The position numbers were made by a program, and so were the translations under genes. A stretch of DNA of 43,702 bases from contig LBYP01000007.1 of assembly GCA_000996245.1 (NCBI GenBank), forward strand, positions 12,302 to 56,003, read 5' to 3'. Under the pieces are notes generated by a model. The model did no database searches, had not been told where the DNA came from, and worked only from the letters and a program-made list of their open reading frames with translations. Positions 15,240-43,702 of the stretch are shown here, in pieces (within the stretch, counting starts at the first letter, position 1; every line of letters begins with the position of its first letter). Origin of the DNA: Parcubacteria group bacterium GW2011_GWA2_40_23. Lineage in GTDB: Bacteria > Patescibacteriota > Patescibacteriia > UBA11705 > JABHMO01.

Positions 15240-18200
15240 TTAGTAGTTTTCTTCTAGGGTTACGTCCTGTGTTAATGGTGGCAAGGCAGCAATAACACTC
15301 ATTAAACTCTCCAACTTCGGTTTTATTGAATCAACAGTCCCCTGTAACCAAATTCCACGGTGCTTAGAGTTAACTTTATTGCTATACATACTATACAATT
15401 CATATAAGCACTGATCATCTCCCGCTGCTTCTGCTGCACACTTGGATAGGTCTGGTTCTGCTGTTAATTCACCGTCTTTTCTCACATAAATAAAGTGTAT
15501 TGGCATTTCATATGTATTAGCTGTCGTTGTTGAAGTTACTATTTTTTGATAGGCTAGATTCTCACTTCGGAAATAACCATCTTCCGCATCAGTTATAATA
15601 AAATATACAAGAGCCTTAAAATTATAACTTGAAGTCTCATATAAAGTTACAACATCATTTAAATACTCATTAATATGCCCAGGCATATTTGATGCAGCCA
15701 TGTAGGCATATGGGGAACTACAAATGTCTTCGTCCGAAGCTACACACATATTACCTGTTGAACATTCATTTGAAGCACACTCATTGTCAGTTGTACAAGC
15801 CTGGAAAGGACACTTTTTTTCATCACCACAAGCATATGTTGCATCACAACCGTTAGTACCTGCATTAACACATGCAAGCCAACCAGGCTTACAAGTTAGC
15901 CATTTTAAAAACTTGGCAGCATCATTGCTTGGCGTTAAAAACTTTTCAGACTGCAATCCTACGTCATCTCTAGAATTGCTTAATACATAGTAAGCCTTGT
16001 TACCAAAAACTTCATGTAAGCCTTTTATATTGGTTCCTGTTTCATGAACGCCGTCAATAATGGTTTTTATCATTATTTTATGAATGTATTCTGGATCATT
16101 TTTTTTATTCCCACCAGACATCGAAATACTACTATCAACAAAAAAAGCAAACAAGATATTTCCTTCACTATCGTCATTAGCTTCAGTACAACCCACAGTA
16201 TCTGGCGGTGTCCAAGTAGCAGAAGCACTTATACACGCTGCTTGAGTAGTGTGTACCGGCTTTGAGCAACAACCAGCAAAATCACAAGTGTTATCACCAT
16301 CATTATCAACACCATCGCTACATTGAGGTGGCCAAAACTCATCATTATCAAAAGCAGAGGTACAACTTGGATCTGCAGGCTTCCAATCGCGAGCATCGCA
16401 ATCAGCTTGTGTATCGATAGTTGCATTTGAACAACAACCGTCGACATCACAAGTACCGTCACTATCATTATCAGTATTATCTTTACACATTGACAAATAA
16501 TCTTCTGCAGGATCATCAGGACCGGTACAACCAGGATCATTTGGATAATCTGTTTTGCCATTTACATCATTATCAACACCATCACTGCAAGCTTTGGGAG
16601 CGGTTGGTGCAACAACCACCTCTGGTGGAGCAACTTGAAGTTGATCCCAGCCAGTGCCAGAAGATTCAACTACAGGAACATATCTATAATTTAATGTTGG
16701 AATTTCGTAGAAATATCTAATTCTAAATTGGCTTTGAGTTGCATCTGCACCATTAGCTTCATAGGTATAAGTAAAGTTTTTAATATTATCGGTTGCTGTT
16801 TTGCTCTTGTTGTAATAACTGTATAAATTAGCAAAAGTCAGGGTAGAGCTGTTATAACAAGCCTTAGAATCATAACCACCGGAGCTTGAGCAATCGATGC
16901 AAGCAACACCTGGAAGAATACATTGTTGAGTACTAGAACAAGCTAATATATTACCAGATGAATCAGCTCCACAATCAACCGTCTGAGTAGTAGAAGAGAT
17001 ACAGCCAGCGTCATCTTTTTTGCAGGCAACACCAGTGGCAGTAGTATATTTATAAGTCGGTGGAACATTATACAAAGCATTTATCGGATCAATTGGCATA
17101 TCCAGACCTAACTCTGTTTTAAAAGTAGTCTTCCAGGAATCCCAAACACTATTGGTATTATGGCGTTGCAAAGTACCGGCCTCTAATTGTGGTACTTTCC
17201 CACCATGTTGTGATTTATAAACATTGACATATTCCTGCATCAAAACAAAATCCTGCAAACGCTGCGTATCGCGAATAAGTTTAATTTTACTGATAGTTCC
17301 ACTATCGAGCTCATTCATGTTGAACTTTAAGAACTGAACAAGCTGACCAAAAATATTTTGAGTGGCGGGGTTAGCGCCTTGAGAATAACTCAAAAGATAA
17401 ATATTATTCCAAACATTAGAACCATTAATATTCGAAGCCGAAACATAGAGAGTGCGACCATCTTGGACACCAGCATAACAAAATTCACCAAAACTATCTG
17501 TCAAACAATCTGAGTTGATAATTGGCACGCTACTGGCTGGGTTTGGTACATTGCGCGCGTACCACAAACTTGGTGGCAAACCCTCCGGATTTTCATAAAT
17601 GCGTAATGAAATAGCATCGGGTGCATTATCATTAGTGGTTGCATAATCATTATCTGTTTTACGGACAAAGAAATATTGTGCAAACAAGGCTGGCTCTTCC
17701 CAACCATCTGTTGCTGAAGTACATTTTGGATCATGAGAATCGATTAAACCATTATTATCATCATCAATACCATTATTACATTGATTTTGTGTGTCCACAT
17801 TTAATTCCTGCCAACCAGAGTTATCGCCATAGAAAATTCCCTTAGATTTAGCGACATCAGTGATATTAATGTATTTAAATCTTAAAGGAACACCCCCATG
17901 ATCTTGAATACACTGTGAAGAAATACTACAAATACAATCTGTACTTGGCGTAGTACAGGCCTCCCCACTAGCAAGAGTACAAGAAGCAGAATAATCAGCG
18001 GTACAATTAACTGTTCCGGGAACAGTAGAATTAAAATCCCAAGCAGCTTTCAGCCCTGTTTCTGGATTTGTATTTATTTGTTCTGGCGTTTTTGCACCCG
18101 CCCAAACACGGAAATCATCCATATAACCACCAAATGAAACTAGAGGAACCTTTGTCTTACCTAAACCCCCAATAAAAAGTTTATCATAGTCAGCTCCGGC

Positions 18201-21200
18201 CTCATCTTTTTCGCTAATACAAACACAACCCGGATCATTCTTTGCGCAACTTGAACCATCAGACTTAATACAAGTATCTTGTCTTGGCCAAACAAACATA
18301 GGAGCAGTTTGATTCTCCAGTGTTTTGGCCCCGGTACAACTAGCAGCAGCTAGATCGCATTGCATTTTACCGTTAATGAAAAGCGCTGCGATTCCACTTC
18401 TATGGGATAAAAGTATTTGATTGAAACCATTATTCAGCAAACCATCGGCTGCCTCGACACCTTTATATATAGCCGTCTTCCCGGGATATTTGATTTCAAA
18501 GACAACTGAACGTTTAATATTTGCCACAGTACAAGCGCCACATTGCTCGCGCGTCTTGAGGCCGCTCATAACATCGCTCCAGCATGCTGGGTCAGCAGAG
18601 CACCAACTGCGCACCCCTAACTGGACATGCGCTTGATTAGGAACACTCTTTAGTCCATCAGGATCTGCGGATGTTGTTAAATTTTTATAAAATATACGGA
18701 CATAGCGGTCTTGCGGTAAATCATCATTATAAACCCAAGTAGAAATAGTCCAACCCTTTGTATAATCATTCATTATAGGGTTCAAATCTTCATGAGCTTC
18801 TACATAATCATAATTACGATCGAAGTAAATTCCGAAACGTGGGTTTGGGTTAACTTCTGTAAAAGCACCGGTCATTAAACCAACAAGTGGTAAATCATCG
18901 GATAAATCTTTATCTTTGCCAAAATCACGACAATAGAACAAGCCAGCGTTGAATTCTTTTTCAACTAAATAACTTGGCATCAATTGTCCATTATTAGTCA
19001 GCTCAAGTTTAAGATCTAACTTTTTGTGTGTTATAGCTTCGCCCGAATTATATTGATATTCTGGTGGGATAGATCTATTAAAACTATTGTAAACATCACC
19101 AAACCAAGGGTTATCGCAAATAAATACTTTAATATTGCCGACCCCAGTGTATGTGGCACCGGTAGTTGACTCTTCTCCGGGGCTATACGAACAATAACAA
19201 TTTGCAGTACCATAAGTGCAACTAGCACCACTGCCGTTAGTACAAACTTGACCAAGAGCGTCTTCACTAATAGTCGCTGTTGCTTTTATTTGTCCTTGAC
19301 CATTCTTTGTTTGAGTCACAACATCCGCTGCAGTTCCGCTTGGATTAACAATTTGAGCCAGTGCAGTGTCAGTTGACTCCCAATTCCAATCCCAATTGTA
19401 AACACCAGGCATTGGGAAAATTTCATTAATGCCACTCTTAGCGTAAGCAGTGTAGGCAAATGACTGGCCCGATTTCATGACAAACAAATCGGCTGGTGAA
19501 ACAACGACATTGTCGAGACGGCAAGCTTCAGCACCGGTGGTAAATTCAATGATGGCTGGATTCGGCGTTATGGTTCTATTACATTTATTTTTTAAATTCT
19601 TTAAAACAATCCCATATCTTGTGTCCGGCAATAATAATTCTTTAGGGATAGCGCGCATTTCGATTCCACTAGTTGTTTGTTTAAGCTCCATAGTCATTTC
19701 TGGTCCTACACAAAACTTTAGGGGATCAGCCAAACCAACTTTAAATAATAACGAACGAACAAATTCCTTTGCTTTTTCATAACCATTAACAAACCAATTT
19801 ATTGTCGTGTTTTGAGTTAAATATCCTGGTGCAGGATTACTTATTTCGCCTCTGACACAAGTAGCGGCACGGTAATAAAAGAAAAGGCTATTATTCTCTT
19901 TGCGACAATTTGATCCTGGAATTGGTTGATTACATAATTCCATTGTTGCCTGAGTCACTCCTGCACAAACACAAATATCTTCGCCCTTTACCTCTGTAAG
20001 TGGTGTTGATATGACCAGTGCGATATTACGACAAACATCTTGCGCATTATTAGCTGGAATGGTTGTGGGGTTTAAGGCAGTTCCCGCCTCACACGTTGTA
20101 TTCACTGCTTCATTATAAACAGATTTTGGTACACGCAAAGTAATACCTGTATCACCGCTTTTTGGGGTAGTCTCGCCCTCAATTTTTTCTACAGTAGCAG
20201 CAATGATTTTTTTCGTTAAACTGTACGAAGTTTTTGGTGCAACATCTGGGTTAAGACGTAAAACAACTTGGAATACAGATGAAGTGGCTGAATGTTTTTC
20301 TGTGTTAATAGTTGCTTTTTGGTATGGGCTACCAGTGTTACATTTGCTCATATCAGATTCAACCGTGCCACACATACACTTGCCTGATGTTGTGTTAACT
20401 GTACAAGTAATAGCGGATGCCACTTCGCAAGCAGCATCTTCCCCTTCTTCCTTAGTCCCATTACCGCACTGTGAACCATATTTAATATCTGAACCTAAAT
20501 TTGTACATTTGGTAGTGCAACCTTCTGAGAAATCACAAACACAATTATCCGTTCCTCGATCACAAGAAACTTTTATTTTGCCATTTGCCCCGCAAGTATT
20601 TGCTTCGGCGCAAACGCATTTACCTGACTGGACTGTACACCCAGGGATTGCAAGAACTCCAGTACATTTCACTTTGTCAGATAGGATTAAATCTTCTCCG
20701 CAGAAACAATTTTGCGCGGCGCCCATCAACGAACACCCTGCAACTGGTAAAATTCCAGCGCATTGAACCATGTTCGCTGTCTGAACTGGGCAAGCTTCTT
20801 CTTTAAAACATGCCGTTTTATCGCAGGCTTTTAATCCCAAACCTGGAATAGTTTCAGTAAGATTCCCATTACCACAGCAAAGTGTGTCTGTTGGATTAAC
20901 GCACAAAGGATAACCAGTAACTAAACATTTATCATTACATAAAGCTTTATTAGTAGCCGGATCAGAAACCAAAGGATCGCATTTTTCGCCAGGGTCAACT
21001 ACATGATTACCACAAATTGACAGGCCAGCAGTATATTTAATTTGAGAACCTTCCTTTAAACAAGTGTTACTGATGCCGTCTCCAGGTTTATTATTAGAAT
21101 CATCAGAATCTTCTCCGGCTTCTTTAATGCCATTGCCACAAACATAACCAACAGCGGTACCAGCATTCAAACAACCAGGAGTACACGCTTTACTCTTAGA

Positions 21201-24200
21201 GACTAAGGCACAAGGTGGATTCGCTTGAGTGGCGGCTGCGGGGTCGCAAGAAACACCATTTTTATCTTTATATTCAGCAGCAAAATCACACTCTTCTTGA
21301 CCATTAACCCTGCCATTACCACAACAAACAGAGTCTTCGCTAATTAACTCCGCAACAGTACAAGGACTAAAATTATTTAATAAACAACTAGTATCGTTGC
21401 AAGCTACTCCCTCATCAATGACTTCAACGCCTGCCTCATTCAACACCATTGTCTTACCGGCAGTTTCTTCTGCCTGCGAAAAATCACATTCTTCACCAAC
21501 ACCAATTTTACCATCACCGCAAACAGCGCGATAAGTTATGCTTCCCTTTAAAAGACAATTGCCTGTACATTTATTATCACCAGAAGCGGCCGCATTATAA
21601 ACCTTATTTGTTATCTCAGCCAAAGGAGCGCCATCATTTACATTGCTCGTTGGAAAATAGGAATTAGGGAATACAGTGTCATCCGTATTGTCACCAGTAA
21701 CATCATTATCACTATCCTTTGTGCTCCAAGTCCAAGGATAATGCAGTGGGTTCAAAATTTGGCCAGTAATATTGCATTTATCCGGTGCGCTCGTTGGTTC
21801 AACTGAATAGCTGACTACTTCACCCGGAGTAGCGGCTTCATAATTGGCTGGCACAACATTAACAGAATCAATAACGCATTGATTTTGATCATTTTTCGTT
21901 TTGAATACCCAACTAAAACTATTCAATCCGGTTGCGCCGCCAGCATCATGATAATTCAATCCAGTTAAATGCACGCCACTAATACTCTCGAGCGCATTGG
22001 AAATAACAACGCGATGATATTTGTTGAATAATAAATTTGTATTTGGCTTTAAATCTATTTTTAAAATATTATCCCCAGTTGAAGGCGCTATCGCAGGATT
22101 ATAAATATATGTAACTGTGTCAATTTCGGCGGTTGATGGAGTAACAACAGTACACTCCTCTGTTTCACAAGTATAAATTTTAATGTTTTCTTTAACAGGG
22201 GTCTTCATCTTAGTATTAAAAGTCACACCAAGCTGCGCATTAATACAAGCTTCCTTACAATTTGGATAAAATGAAGTTACTCGTGGTTCACTAAAGTTAA
22301 TTTCTAGCTCTCCTGTTTTGTGGTAAACAACAGTGGCTTTCGCGACAACAGCATCAGCAGAGATAATGATCGGGGTGCTTGTTTCTAAATCACCATCAAC
22401 CCGACATTCGCAGCCTTCTTCAAACTGATTGACACAAGCACTGTCATCGGCTTTTTTACAATTTTCTAATTTACTATCATTAATCGCATAGACACCAATA
22501 TCATTTCGTTTAGGGTCAACTGTACAATATAATGCCGGGCCAGTTTTACAACCATAACCTATTTTTTCAGCTCTCTCTTCAGTTGCAGGAACAGTCCAAA
22601 CCCAGGGCTTATCCTCCACGTTAATTTGCTGACAACCAGACATTCCAGAAACTAAATATTTTTGAATTTGTTGAACAGATTTAATAATGCCTTTCGAAGG
22701 AGTCATCAAAAACTTATCAGGTTCGCAATTCGCAGCCTTTGTTTTGAAAAACCAGCTATAATTTTCTGTCATTGCTTTGCCTGAAGGTGAAGCGACGCCA
22801 CTGGTCCCGCCCAAAATTTCTACTTGATACCAGGTATCCGTTTTAAGGGTAGCATCAATTCCTTGTTGCAAGAAACTGCCAATTCCAGGATAGACTTTCA
22901 GTGTGTCGTACAAAGAAAAGGAAGTCAGCATATTGGTAGAATCAGCACTTTCCGGTTGTGGCCAGATATCAAGTGGATTGATCTCTGAAAAAGTAATGCT
23001 ATCCCACTCACTCGCTGTATATGTTGCTAAATTACATTCCTCATCTCTACATTTACGAAGAGTGATCTTGCCATCTAAGGCAGTCAGATTAAGTGTCATG
23101 TTGAAAGTAGCGGAAATCAAACCATTTGGACATGCCAATTCATCACTTTTTGCTGGTGAGGGCGATTGAGTATAACCAGTACCAGTAGCTGGAACCAAGC
23201 AGGTACGTTCAAGAACCGCAGGAATTTTTGGAATTACACCAGTACTCATAACCCAAGCATATTCTGAATTATGCGACTGAACAGTAGTTACGCAAACATC
23301 TTGTTTTGTCTGACCTGCAGTGGCATCTTTACAAACACCATCGCCACAACAAAACTGACTAGCCAAACAAGAAGTATCAGTACAAATACCAAGTTTAAAC
23401 TGAACTGAATTACTTTCTACAGACCGGTCTGCGCTATGCACCAGAACGCCACCAGTCATAGCATCAGCAGGAACTTTAGCATTCCCAATTTGTTTATCGA
23501 CCCAGGTCAGGTCTGTTTTATCTACCAAGGCGCGGAGATCTGCTGTATCAACATCTTTTTTATCAAACGAAACATTATAAATACTTTTGTCAGTACCAAA
23601 ATTTTCTCCGACAATCGTAACCACGGTATTCATTGGTCCATTATTTGGTGAAATACTACAAATACCCGGACCAGGAGCATTTGTATTAACGATAAAATTT
23701 TTATTGTTACTTGGTAAGCTTTGATTGGTTATTATTTTAACCCAATAATTTCCAGGGGTCATTGCGGTGGTACTCCCTGGCAAAGTCTCTGGAACTTTAA
23801 CTTTAACCTCAGTATCAGACCAACTAGCTGCACCACAAGCTAATAGTCCAATAAATGATGGCTCAAGTTCTTCAGTCGTTGGATTTCTAGCTTCCATAAA
23901 ACCACCATGTCCATCGCTTTGTAATGGCGAAAAAATAACTTGCCCCGTCTTGTCTCCAAAATTAGTGCCTAGAACAGAAATTATCTGATTCAAAGGTCCG
24001 GCTCCGGAACAAATGCAAGCATCTGTCCCCTTGGTACAAATCTCATGTTTAGTGCAAATCTTTACCGGTTCAGCTGTTTTACAACTACAATTTGATTCAC
24101 CCTCCAAACATTTTGAGCCTGCCAATTTAAGACAAATCCTAAAAGCGTCACCAGTACAAACGCAATCTTCTGACGACCCCTCAATACAAGTTGCTTTCGC

Positions 24201-26882
24201 GCTTAAAGTACATGTTTTTACCGGTTCATTTTCCATGCACGTGCAGCCATTCGTTCCTTCATCTTCTTTGTCGCAAGTTGTTGCGGCTGTTGCAGTACAA
24301 ATTCTTGGCGTAATTTCTGTAATTGTAGGGAAAGAACTTGATTCTATTAAATTAAAAGATAAAGGATTGCTCATGACATTATAGCAATTGCAACCAATTG
24401 AATCTTTAACACAATCTTCAAGACAAGATCCTGATCCAGCTACACAATCAGCTTTTGTTTTTTGGCAACGCTCCCCTTTGCCAACTACAACATTATAAAG
24501 ACCTTTGTTTATTTGAGGTACGCGCACATTGGTGATTGAAGTGTCAGACCAAGCACCCATAACAGCGGCTGAGAAATCACCAAAATATATATTATCAGAA
24601 GTACCTCTTGAACCAAATTTCTCGCCGCCTAAAACAGTATAAGCACCTGGAGACCCTTCCTCCGGAGTCATTGAGCACAAACCTGGATATTGTAAATTTA
24701 AATTTTTTGAAAAATCACCAATCCAACCAAGATCATTGGTAGTATCATCAAATTGATAGGTTTTAGTGACCGAATCTAAGCTGTTGGTAACAACTTTTAT
24801 GGGGCCATCTTCAATGCCCGCCGGAACCTTAACTATAATTTGATTGTCTTTCCAAGCATCGGCAGGATCACAAGGCACCTCTGCTGGTAAGGTCATGGTA
24901 CCGGCAGCACCAGTGAAGAACACGCCACTTACTCCCGCAGTGTAATCAGAAAATCCACTACCATATATTGTAATAAAATTACCATCTCCACCTTCTTTCG
25001 GATTTACATTATTTATCACAGGCACAAACACGCAAACGCCATCTGCACAATAACCCCCATTACAATCACCATCAACCCTACAAACACCATCGTCACAAGC
25101 ACCGCAAACTGGGTTGTAAGCCGGATCGGTGCAAGCAAGCATGACGCCTGTGGCATCGCAACAAAAATCCGGTCTAACAATAACATCCATTTTCTTAGTA
25201 CCATGGTTACCATCAATATCATCAGCCTGGAGCATTAAACTATGTTCTTCGAAATTTTTTGATCCCAAAGGATAATCATTAACGGCCCAAGGGATTGATG
25301 AGCTAAATATTTCAGGAGATAATTCATCTGTTTGCGTCACAGAACTAATTGCTTGATCCGTCGCATCTCCCTTAGGATCAACGTACAAAGAAACAACACT
25401 AACTGCGACATCATCTTCAGCTGTAAATGGAATCATTCTGTCATCCTCAGCACCAGATGGGAACTGACAAACATTTTTATTAAAAGCATCAAAATTAACC
25501 GTTGGTGGAGTGACATCACAAATATCACCAGTAGTAAATTTAAAAGTGCAAGGATGAGTGGTCTCGCAAAACAGTTCATCTCCATTAGCTGCCTTTAAAC
25601 CAATTTTATCAGTGGCACTAGCTTTATTTTTTAAACTGACAGTATATTCTGTATCTTTCTTTAAAGCATAAGCACCAGGATTTAATGGATCACACACACC
25701 CGCGGGGACAAATTCAACTAAACGACCACCATTCCAAAATTTAAAAGTTCCATTAACCGTGTCTACCCCGGGGAAATCAGATATAAATCTGAGACGAACA
25801 TAATTCATTTTTAAACAAGTTGTCCCCTGGCGTGCCCACTTAATAAAAACTTTATCACCACCAAGACAAGCCGGGTCTAAATTAAGTGAATTTTTACCAT
25901 CTGGTGGCAACCATTTTTCTTTCATTAAAATTAAATTATCCTCGCTTTTTCCACAAGAAATATTTACCAAAGAATCTGCTCCTGACTCGGTAGTTTGAAA
26001 GTCTAAATAACTGTTAGCTGCTGTTTCTGTGCCGTTATCGCTAACATCAAACTCAATTAACATTGGGGTGCCACCCAAATGAGCTTCATCACACATTACC
26101 CAATCGGCCGTATAGTTATGGTCCATTTCTTTAATTGCTGTCAGTATTTCTTCCCCATGTCCATTTGGTTCTGTAACTGTTTTGGGTTTATCAACAATCG
26201 TGTGTGACACTGTTCCTGCACTGGTTGTAATTTGGAGATTCGATAAATTTACGGTTGCTTCACTAACAGCTTGATTAAAAGAAATACGTGGGTGAACATT
26301 TATAATTTTTTGAGGTGCTGGTGGTGGGCTGAATTGATCTGTTTTTAATAAACCATAGCCGCTAATATCAAAACCAGATTTTTCGCTATAATAGGTTGCA
26401 GAATAGCAACCTTTGTCAGATGGGAAGTCGACAGAACCATCGCCATCATTATCAATACCATCAGCACATTGATAGGTATAGGTCGCATCTGTCAGAGCCC
26501 CAGTAATTCTACTCATGACAAAGGCAACGATAGAATAGGATAAAAGTATAATTACCAAACCAATAAGAGCGTTAGTTATATATTTTTTGGCATCAGCAAC
26601 TTTTTCCTGTTCCCCACCAGAAGTCATGTATAAAAATCCTCCATAGAGGACTAAACAAACGGCAACAATACCCAAAAAGCCTAAAATTACTTTTATAATT
26701 TTGCCAATCAAGCTCTTCAAGTCTGCATTGGCTAAACCAGCCCCACCAGCTACTGTCTCTAATCCGCCCTCAACACTATTATTATCAGCTGCTAAAACCG
26801 AAGCAATGTCATAAAAACAAAAACTGACAACTGCCAAAACAATGCCGATGAAAACTAAATTACGAAAGACTTTTTTTGACAT
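15240..26882 (-). CDS. Giant multidomain surface protein (3,880 aa): T4SS-pilin-like N-terminus, Ig-like/IPT-TIG, Cys-rich CGNGxxExGExCD, LamG-like, MopE-like and C-terminal VWA regions
   Basis: Continuous ORF; N-term two TM with LYGGFLYMTSGGEQEKVADAKKYITNALIGLVIILLSYSIVAFV; IPT: NVNPKEGGDGNFITIYGSGFS; CGDGKIGVGEECDF; DGVDNDGDNTCD; VWA: ILFAFFVDSSISMSGG. Confidence 0.93.
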   Translation of the reverse strand: MSKKVFRNLVFIGIVLAVVSFCFYDIASVLAADNNSVEGGLETVAGGAGLANADLKSLIGKIIKVILGFLGIVAVCLVLYGGFLYMTSGGEQEKVADAKKYITNALIGLVIILLSYSIVAFVMSRITGALTDATYTYQCADGIDNDGDGSVDFPSDKGCYSATYYSEKSGFDISGYGLLKTDQFSPPPAPQKIINVHPRISFNQAVSEATVNLSNLQITTSAGTVSHTIVDKPKTVTEPNGHGEEILTAIKEMDHNYTADWVMCDEAHLGGTPMLIEFDVSDNGTETAANSYLDFQTTESGADSLVNISCGKSEDNLILMKEKWLPPDGKNSLNLDPACLGGDKVFIKWARQGTTCLKMNYVRLRFISDFPGVDTVNGTFKFWNGGRLVEFVPAGVCDPLNPGAYALKKDTEYTVSLKNKASATDKIGLKAANGDELFCETTHPCTFKFTTGDICDVTPPTVNFDAFNKNVCQFPSGAEDDRMIPFTAEDDVAVSVVSLYVDPKGDATDQAISSVTQTDELSPEIFSSSIPWAVNDYPLGSKNFEEHSLMLQADDIDGNHGTKKMDVIVRPDFCCDATGVMLACTDPAYNPVCGACDDGVCRVDGDCNGGYCADGVCVFVPVINNVNPKEGGDGNFITIYGSGFSDYTAGVSGVFFTGAAGTMTLPAEVPCDPADAWKDNQIIVKVPAGIEDGPIKVVTNSLDSVTKTYQFDDTTNDLGWIGDFSKNLNLQYPGLCSMTPEEGSPGAYTVLGGEKFGSRGTSDNIYFGDFSAAVMGAWSDTSITNVRVPQINKGLYNVVVGKGERCQKTKADCVAGSGSCLEDCVKDSIGCNCYNVMSNPLSFNLIESSSFPTITEITPRICTATAATTCDKEDEGTNGCTCMENEPVKTCTLSAKATCIEGSSEDCVCTGDAFRICLKLAGSKCLEGESNCSCKTAEPVKICTKHEICTKGTDACICSGAGPLNQIISVLGTNFGDKTGQVIFSPLQSDGHGGFMEARNPTTEELEPSFIGLLACGAASWSDTEVKVKVPETLPGSTTAMTPGNYWVKIITNQSLPSNNKNFIVNTNAPGPGICSISPNNGPMNTVVTIVGENFGTDKSIYNVSFDKKDVDTADLRALVDKTDLTWVDKQIGNAKVPADAMTGGVLVHSADRSVESNSVQFKLGICTDTSCLASQFCCGDGVCKDATAGQTKQDVCVTTVQSHNSEYAWVMSTGVIPKIPAVLERTCLVPATGTGYTQSPSPAKSDELACPNGLISATFNMTLNLTALDGKITLRKCRDEECNLATYTASEWDSITFSEINPLDIWPQPESADSTNMLTSFSLYDTLKVYPGIGSFLQQGIDATLKTDTWYQVEILGGTSGVASPSGKAMTENYSWFFKTKAANCEPDKFLMTPSKGIIKSVQQIQKYLVSGMSGCQQINVEDKPWVWTVPATEERAEKIGYGCKTGPALYCTVDPKRNDIGVYAINDSKLENCKKADDSACVNQFEEGCECRVDGDLETSTPIIISADAVVAKATVVYHKTGELEINFSEPRVTSFYPNCKEACINAQLGVTFNTKMKTPVKENIKIYTCETEECTVVTPSTAEIDTVTYIYNPAIAPSTGDNILKIDLKPNTNLLFNKYHRVVISNALESISGVHLTGLNYHDAGGATGLNSFSWVFKTKNDQNQCVIDSVNVVPANYEAATPGEVVSYSVEPTSAPDKCNITGQILNPLHYPWTWSTKDSDNDVTGDNTDDTVFPNSYFPTSNVNDGAPLAEITNKVYNAAASGDNKCTGNCLLKGSITYRAVCGDGKIGVGEECDFSQAEETAGKTMVLNEAGVEVIDEGVACNDTSCLLNNFSPCTVAELISEDSVCCGNGRVNGQEECDFAAEYKDKNGVSCDPAAATQANPPCALVSKSKACTPGCLNAGTAVGYVCGNGIKEAGEDSDDSNNKPGDGISNTCLKEGSQIKYTAGLSICGNHVVDPGEKCDPLVSDPATNKALCNDKCLVTGYPLCVNPTDTLCCGNGNLTETIPGLGLKACDKTACFKEEACPVQTANMVQCAGILPVAGCSLMGAAQNCFCGEDLILSDKVKCTGVLAIPGCTVQSGKCVCAEANTCGANGKIKVSCDRGTDNCVCDFSEGCTTKCTNLGSDIKYGSQCGNGTKEEGEDAACEVASAITCTVNTTSGKCMCGTVESDMSKCNTGSPYQKATINTEKHSATSSVFQVVLRLNPDVAPKTSYSLTKKIIAATVEKIEGETTPKSGDTGITLRVPKSVYNEAVNTTCEAGTALNPTTIPANNAQDVCRNIALVISTPLTEVKGEDICVCAGVTQATMELCNQPIPGSNCRKENNSLFFYYRAATCVRGEISNPAPGYLTQNTTINWFVNGYEKAKEFVRSLLFKVGLADPLKFCVGPEMTMELKQTTSGIEMRAIPKELLLPDTRYGIVLKNLKNKCNRTITPNPAIIEFTTGAEACRLDNVVVSPADLFVMKSGQSFAYTAYAKSGINEIFPMPGVYNWDWNWESTDTALAQIVNPSGTAADVVTQTKNGQGQIKATATISEDALGQVCTNGSGASCTYGTANCYCSYSPGEESTTGATYTGVGNIKVFICDNPWFGDVYNSFNRSIPPEYQYNSGEAITHKKLDLKLELTNNGQLMPSYLVEKEFNAGLFYCRDFGKDKDLSDDLPLVGLMTGAFTEVNPNPRFGIYFDRNYDYVEAHEDLNPIMNDYTKGWTISTWVYNDDLPQDRYVRIFYKNLTTSADPDGLKSVPNQAHVQLGVRSWCSADPACWSDVMSGLKTREQCGACTVANIKRSVVFEIKYPGKTAIYKGVEAADGLLNNGFNQILLSHRSGIAALFINGKMQCDLAAASCTGAKTLENQTAPMFVWPRQDTCIKSDGSSCAKNDPGCVCISEKDEAGADYDKLFIGGLGKTKVPLVSFGGYMDDFRVWAGAKTPEQINTNPETGLKAAWDFNSTVPGTVNCTADYSASCTLASGEACTTPSTDCICSISSQCIQDHGGVPLRFKYINITDVAKSKGIFYGDNSGWQELNVDTQNQCNNGIDDDNNGLIDSHDPKCTSATDGWEEPALFAQYFFVRKTDNDYATTNDNAPDAISLRIYENPEGLPPSLWYARNVPNPASSVPIINSDCLTDSFGEFCYAGVQDGRTLYVSASNINGSNVWNNIYLLSYSQGANPATQNIFGQLVQFLKFNMNELDSGTISKIKLIRDTQRLQDFVLMQEYVNVYKSQHGGKVPQLEAGTLQRHNTNSVWDSWKTTFKTELGLDMPIDPINALYNVPPTYKYTTATGVACKKDDAGCISSTTQTVDCGADSSGNILACSSTQQCILPGVACIDCSSSGGYDSKACYNSSTLTFANLYSYYNKSKTATDNIKNFTYTYEANGADATQSQFRIRYFYEIPTLNYRYVPVVESSGTGWDQLQVAPPEVVVAPTAPKACSDGVDNDVNGKTDYPNDPGCTGPDDPAEDYLSMCKDNTDNDSDGTCDVDGCCSNATIDTQADCDARDWKPADPSCTSAFDNDEFWPPQCSDGVDNDGDNTCDFAGCCSKPVHTTQAACISASATWTPPDTVGCTEANDDSEGNILFAFFVDSSISMSGGNKKNDPEYIHKIMIKTIIDGVHETGTNIKGLHEVFGNKAYYVLSNSRDDVGLQSEKFLTPSNDAAKFLKWLTCKPGWLACVNAGTNGCDATYACGDEKKCPFQACTTDNECASNECSTGNMCVASDEDICSSPYAYMAASNMPGHINEYLNDVVTLYETSSYNFKALVYFIITDAEDGYFRSENLAYQKIVTSTTTANTYEMPIHFIYVRKDGELTAEPDLSKCAAEAAGDDQCLYELYSMYSNKVNSKHRGIWLQGTVDSIKPKLESLMSVIAALPPLTQDVTLEENY

Positions 26883-39834: not shown

Positions 39835-42039
39835 ATGAAGCACTTAGTCATAGTCGAAAGTCCTACCAAAGCCAGAACCATCTCCAAATTCTTAAGTCGC
39901 GATTACAAGGTCGAATCTTCTTTCGGCCATATTTGCGATTTACCAGCATCAAAACTGGGCGTTGATGTTGATAACAATTTCGAACCAACCTACGTCGTCC
40001 CAGTGAAAGCCAAGAAACAAGTCACCAAATTAAAAGAATTGGCAGCCAAGGCCGATGAAATTATTCTTGCAACAGACCAAGACCGCGAAGGAGAAGCTAT
40101 TGCTTGGCATTTAAAAAATATTTTAAAACCGAAAAAATATACACGCATTGCCTTCCACGAAATTACTAAAAAAGCGATTGATGAGGCCCTTTCAAAACCG
40201 CACGACTTAGATCTCAACGTCGTTGATGCGCAACAGGCGCGTCGTGTGCTCGATCGTTTAGTGGGTTATCAACTTTCACCTTTTTTATGGAAAAAGGTGG
40301 CCCGCGGTTTATCTGCCGGACGCGTACAGAGCGTGGCCGTACGTCTTGTTGTGGAAAAAGAACGTGAACGCGACGCTTTTAAACAAGATGAATACTGGAC
40401 CATTGAAGCTATTTTCTCAAAAGACGAAACCAACAAATTTCCTGGAAAGTTATTTTCAATATCCGGTAAATCACTTGGCAAACTCGGGCTAAAAACAAAC
40501 GATCAAACCGACGAAATCCTCAAAGAATTAGCCGATAAAAATTATTACATCGCCAACATCGAACTGAAGACCAGCAAAAAAACTCCACCAGTCCCCTTCA
40601 CCACATCAACGCTACAACAAGCAGCGAACAATCAATTGAACTTTTCAGCTAAGCAAACCATGATGATTGCTCAAACATTATATGAAGGTGTAAAATTGGG
40701 CACGGAGGGTCAAGGTCTGATTACTTACATGCGTACAGATTCGTTAAATCTTTCTGATTCATATTTAAACCCCGCACGGGAATACATTCAACAACAATTC
40801 GGTGCTGAATATTTACCCAAAGCAGCGGTGAAATATCACACCAAGAGCAAGGGTGCGCAAGAAGCACACGAAGCGATTAGACCAACAGATGTTTTGAAAA
40901 CTCCAGAAAGCGTTCAACAACATTTGGATGCGAATCAATACAAACTATATAAATTGATTTGGGAAAGAACTTTAGCCACTCAAATGACTGCTGCTGTTAT
41001 CGATGCCACAGCATTAGACATCAACGATGAAACCGATAAATATACTTTTAGAGCAACCGGACAAACCGTTAAATTCCCGGGATTCTTAAAAGTCTATCCA
41101 ACTGGCACTAAGGAAATCACTTTGCCAACGCTCGAAGTCAAAGACAAGGTTAAAGCAGAGGAGATGAAGTCTGAACAACATTTTACTCAACCTCCAGCAC
41201 GCTATACGGAAGCTTCTTTGGTCAAAGTTTTGGAAGAATATGGCATTGGACGTCCATCAACTTATGCGCCGACCATTGCCACCATTCAAGAACGCGGTTA
41301 TGTAGAAAAAGAAGCCAAAGCCTTAAAACCGACCGAGATTGGCTGCCTCGTCAACGATATTTTAGTTGAACATTTTAAAGATATTGTTGATTATGAATTT
41401 ACGGCTGATATGGAAAAACAATTTGATGAAATAGAAGCTGGCAAAAAAGAATGGCAACCAGTTATTGCAAAATTCTATGGACCTTTTAAAAAAAACCTAG
41501 ATGAAAAGACGGCTGAATTAACAAAAAAAGGTTTAACCGAAGAAAAAACAGATGAAATCTGCGACAAATGTGGCTCGCCCATGGTTATAAAAGTGAGCCG
41601 ACATGGAAAATTCTTGGCTTGTTCCAAATATCCTGAATGCAAAAACACAAAATCAATTGATGACAATGGCAAAATTGAAGCTAAAGAACCAGAAAAATTG
41701 CTAGATGAAAAATGTCCAGATTGCGGCTCGCCACTTACCGAGAAACACGGCCGCTTTGGTCCCTTTATTGGTTGTTCAAATTATCCTAAATGTAAATACA
41801 TTCAAAAGAAAGATTATGGCACCGGCGTTCATTGCCCACAATGCGAAACTGGTGAGATAGTCAGCAAACGCACTCGTGGTGGTAAAATCTTTTTTGCTTG
41901 TAATAAATATCCTGATTGTAAATTCGCACTCTGGAGCAAACCAACTGGAGAAAAATGCCCGACTTGTCTCTCTCTCATGGTTTATGCCGCAGACAATAAG
42001 ACAGTTTGCAGCAGTAAGGATTGTCCGACGAATAAATAG
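39835..42039 (+). CDS. topA: DNA topoisomerase I with multiple C-terminal zinc ribbons
   Basis: VIVESPTKARTISKFL, ATDQDREGEAIAWHL, ITYMRTDS; CxxCGSP..CSxYPxCK repeats. Confidence 0.97.
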   Translation: MKHLVIVESPTKARTISKFLSRDYKVESSFGHICDLPASKLGVDVDNNFEPTYVVPVKAKKQVTKLKELAAKADEIILATDQDREGEAIAWHLKNILKPKKYTRIAFHEITKKAIDEALSKPHDLDLNVVDAQQARRVLDRLVGYQLSPFLWKKVARGLSAGRVQSVAVRLVVEKERERDAFKQDEYWTIEAIFSKDETNKFPGKLFSISGKSLGKLGLKTNDQTDEILKELADKNYYIANIELKTSKKTPPVPFTTSTLQQAANNQLNFSAKQTMMIAQTLYEGVKLGTEGQGLITYMRTDSLNLSDSYLNPAREYIQQQFGAEYLPKAAVKYHTKSKGAQEAHEAIRPTDVLKTPESVQQHLDANQYKLYKLIWERTLATQMTAAVIDATALDINDETDKYTFRATGQTVKFPGFLKVYPTGTKEITLPTLEVKDKVKAEEMKSEQHFTQPPARYTEASLVKVLEEYGIGRPSTYAPTIATIQERGYVEKEAKALKPTEIGCLVNDILVEHFKDIVDYEFTADMEKQFDEIEAGKKEWQPVIAKFYGPFKKNLDEKTAELTKKGLTEEKTDEICDKCGSPMVIKVSRHGKFLACSKYPECKNTKSIDDNGKIEAKEPEKLLDEKCPDCGSPLTEKHGRFGPFIGCSNYPKCKYIQKKDYGTGVHCPQCETGEIVSKRTRGGKIFFACNKYPDCKFALWSKPTGEKCPTCLSLMVYAADNKTVCSSKDCPTNK

Positions 42040-42228: not shown

Positions 42229-42810
42229 ATGGCATTCAACCATATAAATTATTTTCGGCGATCCACTCGCTTACCAGGCTATAATTATGCACGACCTGGA
42301 ATGTATTTTGTTACTATCTGTACCCATAAAAAAGAAATGCTCTTTGGAGAAATTAAATCGAATCAAATAGTACTAAGTGATTTAGGCGATAATGTCGAAT
42401 ATTATTGGAAAGAAATTCCAAAACATTTTCCGAATACAACTTTGCAGGAATATGTTGTTATGCCTAATCATTTTCATGGAATTATTGTTATTTCTGCCAC
42501 TCTAACCGCTGATGTAGGGGTTCAAAATTTTGAACCCCTACATCGATTAATACCACACAATGCCTTCCAAAAAATCATCCCTAAATCAATTGGCTCCATC
42601 GTCCGTGGCTTCAAAATCGGCGTAACAAAATGGTCCCGTAATAATGGGAAAAATTATATCGTTTGGCAAAGAAACTTTTATGAGCATATTATTCGTAATG
42701 AAATTGAATTATTAAATATTAAAAAATATATTATAAATAATCCTCAAGAGTGGGCTAACGATCCGGAGAAACAAGCACATGACCAAAGAGGTAGAGGTTC
42801 AAAATTTTGA
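42229..42810 (+). mobile_element. REP-associated tyrosine transposase (RAYT, IS200-like/Y1 family)
   Basis: RLPGYNYARPGMYFVTICTHKKEMLFGEI; MPNHFHGIIVI (HUH); NFYEHIIRNE Tyr region; flanked by REP palindromes. Confidence 0.92.
42511..42544. repeat. REP-like palindrome copy 2, inside the RAYT coding sequence
   Basis: GATGTAGGGGTTCAAAA|TTTTGAACCCCTACATC perfect 34 bp, followed by GATTAATACC. Confidence 0.95.
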
Positions 42811-42904: not shown

Positions 42905-43018
42905 TTATTCTACCGAGTGATAGGGATTCATGTGTCCCCAAAGAACAAGCGGCAGAAACAAGGAAAGAACCATAGCCGCAAAGCAAAAGATCGGAAAGAA
43001 CTGGGTCGCCGAGGGCAT
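42905..43018 (-). CDS. 37-aa predicted single-pass membrane peptide
   Basis: MPSATQFFPIFCFAAMVLSLFLPLVLWGHMNPYHSVE*; SD GGAGGAAGTC-ATG; preceded by a strong promoter; not in the ORF track. Confidence 0.55.
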   Translation of the reverse strand: MPSATQFFPIFCFAAMVLSLFLPLVLWGHMNPYHSVE

Positions 43019-43239: not shown

Positions 43240-43342
43240 GCAACAAAAAAGGCCCTGAAAAAATCAGGACCTTTTTAGTGTAGGGATCTGGATAAAAACC
43301 CCAAAACATTGTTGATGATAGGGTTGTCACAGATACCCTACG
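43240..43342 (-). ncRNA. Candidate ~105-nt small structured RNA (RNA1)
   Basis: Promoter TTGTAT-17-TATACT (43349-43377), terminator GGTCCTGA..TCAGGGCC-TTTTTT (43245-43276), pairing GTAGGG-T-ATCTG with CAGATCCCTAC. Confidence 0.5.
43245..43276. terminator. Intrinsic (bidirectional) terminator
   Basis: aaaaaaGGcCCTGAaaaaaaTCAGGaCCttttt. Confidence 0.8.
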
Positions 43343-43499
43343 TTTGAAAGTATAGCGGAAACAAGTGCAAAATACAAGCAAAACAGACTATAATCAAGAA
43401 AGCAAAAAAACAAGAAAACAAATAATGAGACCACTTAATAGTAAAACTTATTGCTTTTTTGCTTTCTTGTTTTTTTGATTAACGCTCACCTGTTTGTTT

Positions 43500-43566
43500 G
43501 GAAACGAAAACTCCTAGACCAAAAGCCCAGGAGTTCTCTTTTTGAGGTTTTACCTATCATCAACAT
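43500..43566 (-). ncRNA. Candidate ~65-nt small RNA (RNA2)
   Basis: Promoter TTGACA-17-TATACT (43571-43599); terminator AACTCCTGGGC-TTTTG-GTCTAGGAGTT-TTCGTTT. Confidence 0.5.
43506..43536 (-). terminator. Intrinsic terminator of RNA2
   Basis: 11-bp stem AACTCCTGGGC/GTCTAGGAGTT with U-rich tail on the minus strand. Confidence 0.7.
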
Positions 43567-43570
43567 AACT

Positions 43571-43599
43571 AGTATAGCAAACTTTTGCTTACTTGTCAA
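43571..43599 (-). promoter_or_regulatory. Consensus sigma70 promoter of RNA2
   Basis: TTGACA - 17 bp (ending TGC) - TATACT on the minus strand. Confidence 0.8.
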
Positions 43600-43702
43600 T
43601 AGCACGTTCTAGCTCATAAAAACTGTTACCGAAAACCTAGTGGATAGCTCATAAATGGGTTACCGTAGTCGTATATGACTATGGAAACAAGAAATAACAT
43701 CT

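Follow-up and report, generated by a model that had tools for sequence, protein, structure and literature searches.

Two predicted small RNAs (sRNAs), RNA1 and RNA2, are encoded on the minus strand at positions 43245-43600 of a 43,702-nucleotide (nt) stretch of contig LBYP01000007.1 of Parcubacteria group bacterium GW2011_GWA2_40_23 (hereafter the window), each with a promoter and a terminator. They are best explained, with a probability of about 0.7, as separately encoded, single-copy sRNAs that evolve as dedicated binding partners and whose complex would alter the state of RNA1. As judged from comparative sequence analysis, the two RNAs have evolved to bind each other and are dedicated partners, because their matching sequences are kept through compensatory change across relatives and random re-pairing never equals the resident combination. 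Pairing is kept in 42 genomes of 15 families, which indicates that selection acts on the interaction itself and not merely on each RNA. To our knowledge, base pairing between two bacterial sRNAs is seldom backed by natural compensatory mutation.

A preliminary description of the window had reported 13 nt of perfect complementarity between two minus-strand transcripts, each with its own strong promoter and terminator. The repeat was located at 43310-43322 and 43553-43565 (CCTATCATCAACA in RNA1 and TGTTGATGATAGG in RNA2, exact complements), and both sites fall within the predicted transcripts. They share a strand, with 230 bp between them, and the two genes do not overlap. Both terminators stood, as did the strong promoter of RNA2, which matches 11 of 12 consensus positions. 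The RNA1 promoter (TTGTAT-17-TATACT, 43377-43349) is moderate rather than strong and was not picked up by the promoter scan because of its weak -35 element; a -10-like hexamer is present at the matching place upstream of RNA1 in relatives. The predicted starts are about 43565 for RNA2 and about 43342 for RNA1. The promoter position thus puts the RNA2 site at the extreme 5′ end, in agreement with the seed-like character ascribed to it. The RNA1 site does involve a local hairpin, as had been proposed, but the arm had been misassigned: the site takes in the 5′ arm of the apical stem, whose ACCC pairs with the downstream GGGGT, together with half of the loop on its 5′ side, and not a 3′ arm.

Conservation of the pairing had been set beforehand as a check, and complementarity proved to be retained in relatives by compensatory change, not lost. 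Among 33 aligned RNA1-RNA2 pairs from 12 families, the helix formed by the 13-nt region (helix I) is paired in 33/33 cases at columns 2, 3 and 5-10 and in 31/33 at column 4. Compensatory pair types occur at 10 of its 14 columns (2, 3, 5, 6, 7, 9, 10, 11, 12 and 13), for example T-A, G-C and A-T at column 6, C-G and T-A at column 7, and A-T and C-G at column 12; in genome G008, column 9 is compensated (ATTACCAACA/TGTTGGTAAT). Columns 13-14, at the extreme 5′ end of RNA2, are paired in only about half of the cases. Over the helix I region of 42 pairs from 15 families, matched partners scored -20.9 against -13.5 for cross-family ones, and none of 10,000 re-pairings was as good. The recognition loop itself differs between families (TATCATCAAC, TATTACCAAC, TTACATTTAC, TTATTATTAC).

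A second region behaves in the same manner. Helix II joins the 3′ half of the RNA1 loop to the RNA2 segment that follows the small hairpin, and both sides change in step: AATTGGGG/CCCAATT (G005), GTCATTGGG/CCCAATGAC (G006), GTGTTATTTGGG/CCCGAGTAACAC (G008, with a G-U pair), CATTGTAAT/ATTACAATG (G090) and GGTTTC/GAAACC (G053). Matched partners reached -16.6 kcal/mol compared with -11.3 kcal/mol for cross-family partners (0/5000 re-pairings as good). In the window, the register of RNA1 TTTTGGGG against RNA2 CCTCAAAA, with one G-U pair, was read by hand, and the region itself was tested by matched-partner energies.

The pairing rule was fixed after 24 genomes, so that later-found genomes form an out-of-sample set. 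A fitting RNA2 was present in 9/10 genomes added by a second RNA1 covariance model and in 9/11 added by a third; matching pairs from this set include CCTTATTATTACC/GGTAATAATAAGG (G247) and TTGTATCAATATA/TATATTGATACAA (G230). RNA2 can also be recovered blindly. A scan for sigma-70-like promoters (at least 9/12) followed by a terminator, with complementarity to RNA1 checked only afterwards, yielded one to four candidates per locus in 34 loci. In all of these but G173 (33 loci), one candidate has a predicted 5′ end that pairs with the RNA1 loop of the same locus. Altogether, RNA2 was found for 42 of the 45 genomes with RNA1, in the layout of a strong promoter, a 5′ tail complementary to the RNA1 loop of the same genome, usually a small hairpin, and a terminator. 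Other TGTTGATGAT sites inspected in relatives nearly all read as coding sequence. As a rule 120-570 nt separate the two RNAs; in G231 the distance is 950 nt, and in G004, where the genes lie on opposite strands, it reaches 3.0 kb. Near RNA2 of G004, about 3.1 kb from RNA1, a second strong promoter precedes a stretch with TATGTTGATTGATAGGG, which may be a degenerate copy of RNA2.

Covariation attests that RNA1 is a genuine structured RNA. Its 65-nt core covaries and folds into a rod capped by an apical hairpin. The fold comprises 16 pairs, with 95.3% of cells paired and both-side changes at 13/16 pairs, against 39-52% of cells in slid controls; the alignment was fitted to the tested structure, which favours that structure. 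In BLAST comparisons with relatives, RNA1 and RNA2 were matched separately and in differing relative orientation. A first covariance model built from seven RNA1 sequences detected RNA1 in 10 of the 11 genomes that represent the order and in 24 of the 383 that represent the class, and two rounds of rebuilding (models R1-R3) raised the class count to 34 and then 45, always as a single copy per genome. This number is a lower bound, since model sensitivity was still climbing. A draw of 382 genomes across the phylum gave four RNA1 matches, every one inside the class, and one exact RNA1 pattern searched in viral contigs gave no match.

In the proposed complex, helix I would form between the 5′ tail of RNA2 and the 5′ half of the RNA1 apical loop plus its stem arm (about 9-14 bp), while helix II would pair the RNA2 stretch past the small hairpin with the remaining half of the loop; both helices are backed by covariation. 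The RNA1 apical stem, helix I, the RNA2 hairpin and helix II would meet at one point as a four-way junction, which could branch-migrate through exchange of GGG/CCC stems. Each arm has its own backing: covariation for the RNA1 stem and helix I, the matched-partner test for helix II, and folding, in most relatives, for the RNA2 hairpin. Both RNAs are presumably transcribed. First contact is likely made by the unpaired RNA2 5′ tail on the open RNA1 loop: because the helices cross instead of nesting, the tail has to pass through the loop, which a free 5′ end is able to do. Folding of each free RNA indicates that the loop and the tail are the more accessible parts. Complex formation would then change the state of RNA1, either by inactivating it (anti-sRNA control) or by completing it as one bipartite RNA.

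Several observations weigh against this reading. Transcription of RNA1 and RNA2 is predicted from sequence. Nested cofolding of the window RNAs improves on the separate folds by only 1.9 kcal/mol, the crossing form lying outside the scoring of the tool. No RNA2 partner was found by pattern search in G173, G026 and G346; the latter two are the third-model genomes without a fitting RNA2, G026 being a weak RNA1 match and RNA1 of G346 lying where a contig ends. The resident RNA1 of G006, G330, G203 and some f47 genomes, whose loop is close to the family consensus, would pair equally well or better with several foreign RNA2s. Finally, some RNA2s were first recognised partly through complementarity, which inflates the matched scores; this bias is limited by RNA2s found through BLAST homology (G002, G005), by the blind scan and by the later genomes.

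Two outcomes are contained within the dedicated-partner explanation, and their likelihoods are conditional on it. In one, given close to an even chance, RNA1 and RNA2 are pieces of a single bipartite structural RNA, perhaps in a ribonucleoprotein, and the complex is the functional state. This would account for their near-strict co-occurrence (42/45) and linkage, and for dedicated pairing that persists despite sequence drift and is conserved in every junction arm. On the other hand, the free-state stems are also conserved, the genes may lie 3 kb apart on opposite strands, as in G004, and no protein partner is known. In the other outcome, given almost the same chance, RNA1 would be an sRNA that acts on its own target, a messenger RNA (mRNA) or a protein, and would be counteracted by RNA2 as a dedicated anti-sRNA or sponge. 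Helices I and II span the entire RNA1 apical loop, so binding would mask it; RNA2 promoters are near consensus; and a precedent exists in CJnc180, which antagonises CJnc190 (PMC8687705). However, RNA1 has no known target, and its loop sequence varies from family to family, in contrast to a seed tied to many mRNA targets; this drift speaks against a regulator whose many mRNA targets are fixed.

A standing two-RNA complex is very slightly favoured over antagonism because of the near-constant co-occurrence, the near-consensus RNA2 promoter and a recognition sequence that drifts freely with its mate following. More specifically, the pair may be a housekeeping two-piece non-coding RNA of the class, made as separate transcripts that would assemble via the four-way junction into one functional particle, an idea that we hold only tentatively and at odds well short of even. 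The preliminary description had favoured a sponge- or antitoxin-like pair in which RNA2 flips RNA1 between structures. Its two separate small RNAs are borne out, as is the pairing with the RNA1 apical hairpin, which proved to be conserved; the sponge or antitoxin role stays hypothetical, as no toxin was seen and the recognition sequence drifts. Flipping is possible as one outcome only, because the stems that each RNA forms in its free state are conserved as well, and both could persist in a four-way junction.

A type I toxin-antitoxin arrangement would fit the antisense-like pairing and the nearby 37-amino-acid hydrophobic open reading frame (ORF) with its own strong promoter (MPSATQFFPIFCFAAMVLSLFLPLVLWGHMNPYHSVE, 42905-43018, minus strand; GGAGG upstream; an 11/12 promoter at 43085-43057 that resembles the RNA2 promoter). 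It is nonetheless judged very improbable: RNA1 and RNA2 show no conserved reading frame when the aligned RNAs are read by eye, the pair occupies a fixed chromosomal place near topA, and the ORF was rejected as toxin partner, since no relative of it was found in the loci examined. That two unrelated intergenic elements are complementary by chance is conceivable in a long scan (a complement of at least 13 nt arose in 2/3000 pairs of dinucleotide-preserving shuffles of both transcripts), but this reading has negligible probability and is refuted by the covariation, with compensatory changes in many families and 0/10,000 re-pairings as good.

Table 1. Predicted features of the RNA1-RNA2 locus and its conserved neighbour
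Feature	Position	Strand	Basis or remark
RNA1 promoter -35 (TTGTAT)	43372..43377	-	sequence; 17 nt before -10; read by eye
RNA1 promoter -10 (TATACT)	43349..43354	-	about 7 nt ahead of conserved GTAGGG start
RNA1, predicted sRNA (about 98 nt with its terminator)	43245..43342	-	conserved 65-nt core (covariance models R1-R3); fold z -7.3
RNA1 structured core	43277..43342	-	closing stem GTAGGG/CCCTAC, inner stem, apical stem ACCC/GGGGT
RNA1 pairing site I (CCTATCATCAACA)	43310..43322	-	part of apical-stem 5′ arm and 5′ half of loop
RNA1 pairing site II (TTTTGGGG)	43299..43306	-	3′ end of loop and 3′ arm of stem
RNA1 intrinsic terminator	43246..43276	-	terminator scan
RNA2 promoter TTGACA-17-TATACT, TG before -10, 11/12 consensus	43571..43599	-	promoter scan
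RNA2, predicted sRNA (about 65-70 nt with its terminator)	43500..43566	-	complementarity-blind promoter and terminator scan; homologues in relatives
RNA2 pairing site I′ (TGTTGATGATAGG), 5′ end	43553..43565	-	repeat, blind scan, helix columns
RNA2 small hairpin AGGT-AAA-ACCT	43545..43555	-	folding; comparable hairpin in most relatives
RNA2 pairing site II′ (CCTCAAAA)	43540..43547	-	region tested; register by hand
RNA2 terminator hairpin GAGAACTCCTGGGC...TCTAGGAGTTTTC	43507..43538	-	folding and blind scan
topA, conserved neighbour; RNA pair on its 3′ side	39835..42039	+	TIGR01051

The end of topA adjoins RNA1 in 29/34 loci, usually in convergent orientation, and the gap between them is often close to 60-130 nt. 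In the window, an ORF for a REP-associated tyrosine transposase (NF047646, score under cut-off) lies between topA and RNA1 at 42229-42810; it is flanked by REP-like palindromes (GTAGGGGTTCAAAATTTTGAACCCCTAC), an extra copy of which lies within the transposase ORF at 42511-42544. Between RNA1 and RNA2, an A-rich imperfect inverted repeat (43380-43485) occurs in about 20 copies in the same genome and also in relatives, and is possibly a small dispersed repeat. Elsewhere in the window, a single ORF of 3880 amino acids (15240-26882, minus strand) has numerous Cys-rich stretches, and its N-terminal membrane segment is like that of pilins. It adjoins a similar protein of 731 amino acids, which matches Mbov_0395 family pilin-like proteins weakly (below cut-off).

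Searches with Rfam 15 at the gathering cut-off gave no match in the window or in 18 loci of relatives, and relaxed thresholds gave chance-level matches only. RNA1 reached 28.4 bits with suhB/mmgR (RF00519; cut-off 41) and RNA2 reached 34.3 bits with rli52 (RF01480; cut-off 70); both lie below gathering and were taken as chance. For 6S RNA (RF00013), no match was obtained in the whole genome of this bacterium, in which controls were detected. A description of such an RNA pair was not found in the open-licence papers searched, and RNA1-RNA2, which belongs to bacteria with reduced genomes, seems not to have been described before. The pair now has a precise structure open to testing, and its homologues provide a natural data set for predictors of RNA-RNA complexes with crossing helices.

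Several known systems share some of these properties. The seed that sponges recognise occurs in mRNA targets as well, whereas the RNA1-RNA2 recognition sequence drifts together with its mate. What is alike is the pairing of an RNA with an sRNA, in the outline given by a review (PMC8383071) and by PMC12559287. Closer in arrangement are CJnc180 and CJnc190 of Campylobacter jejuni, two small RNAs of one locus of which one antagonises the other (PMC8687705). These are cis-encoded and their complementarity is therefore automatic; RNA1 and RNA2 are non-overlapping, usually on the same strand, and maintain complementarity via compensatory mutation. The predicted junction resembles the four-way layout of CopA-CopT of plasmid R1, as that layout is cited in PMC10798244. 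CopA is a cis-antisense RNA to the repA leader that it controls, while RNA1 and RNA2 would each be an independent chromosomal RNA lacking an ORF, and RNA2 pairs through a linear 5′ tail and a 3′ flank instead of a loop. In its mode of action the pair probably comes close to an antisense pair joined through a four-way junction. We do not count it among the CopA-CopT group, since neither RNA is cis-encoded with respect to the other and both lack an ORF: the two RNAs are not read from opposite strands of the same DNA, as cis-encoded antisense RNAs are. Nor does the pair fit an antisense RNA that blocks translation of an mRNA leader, as the genes do not overlap and neither RNA holds a conserved ORF. 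In logic, the two-piece RNA reading is comparable to U4/U6 and crRNA-tracrRNA, here without a known protein partner.
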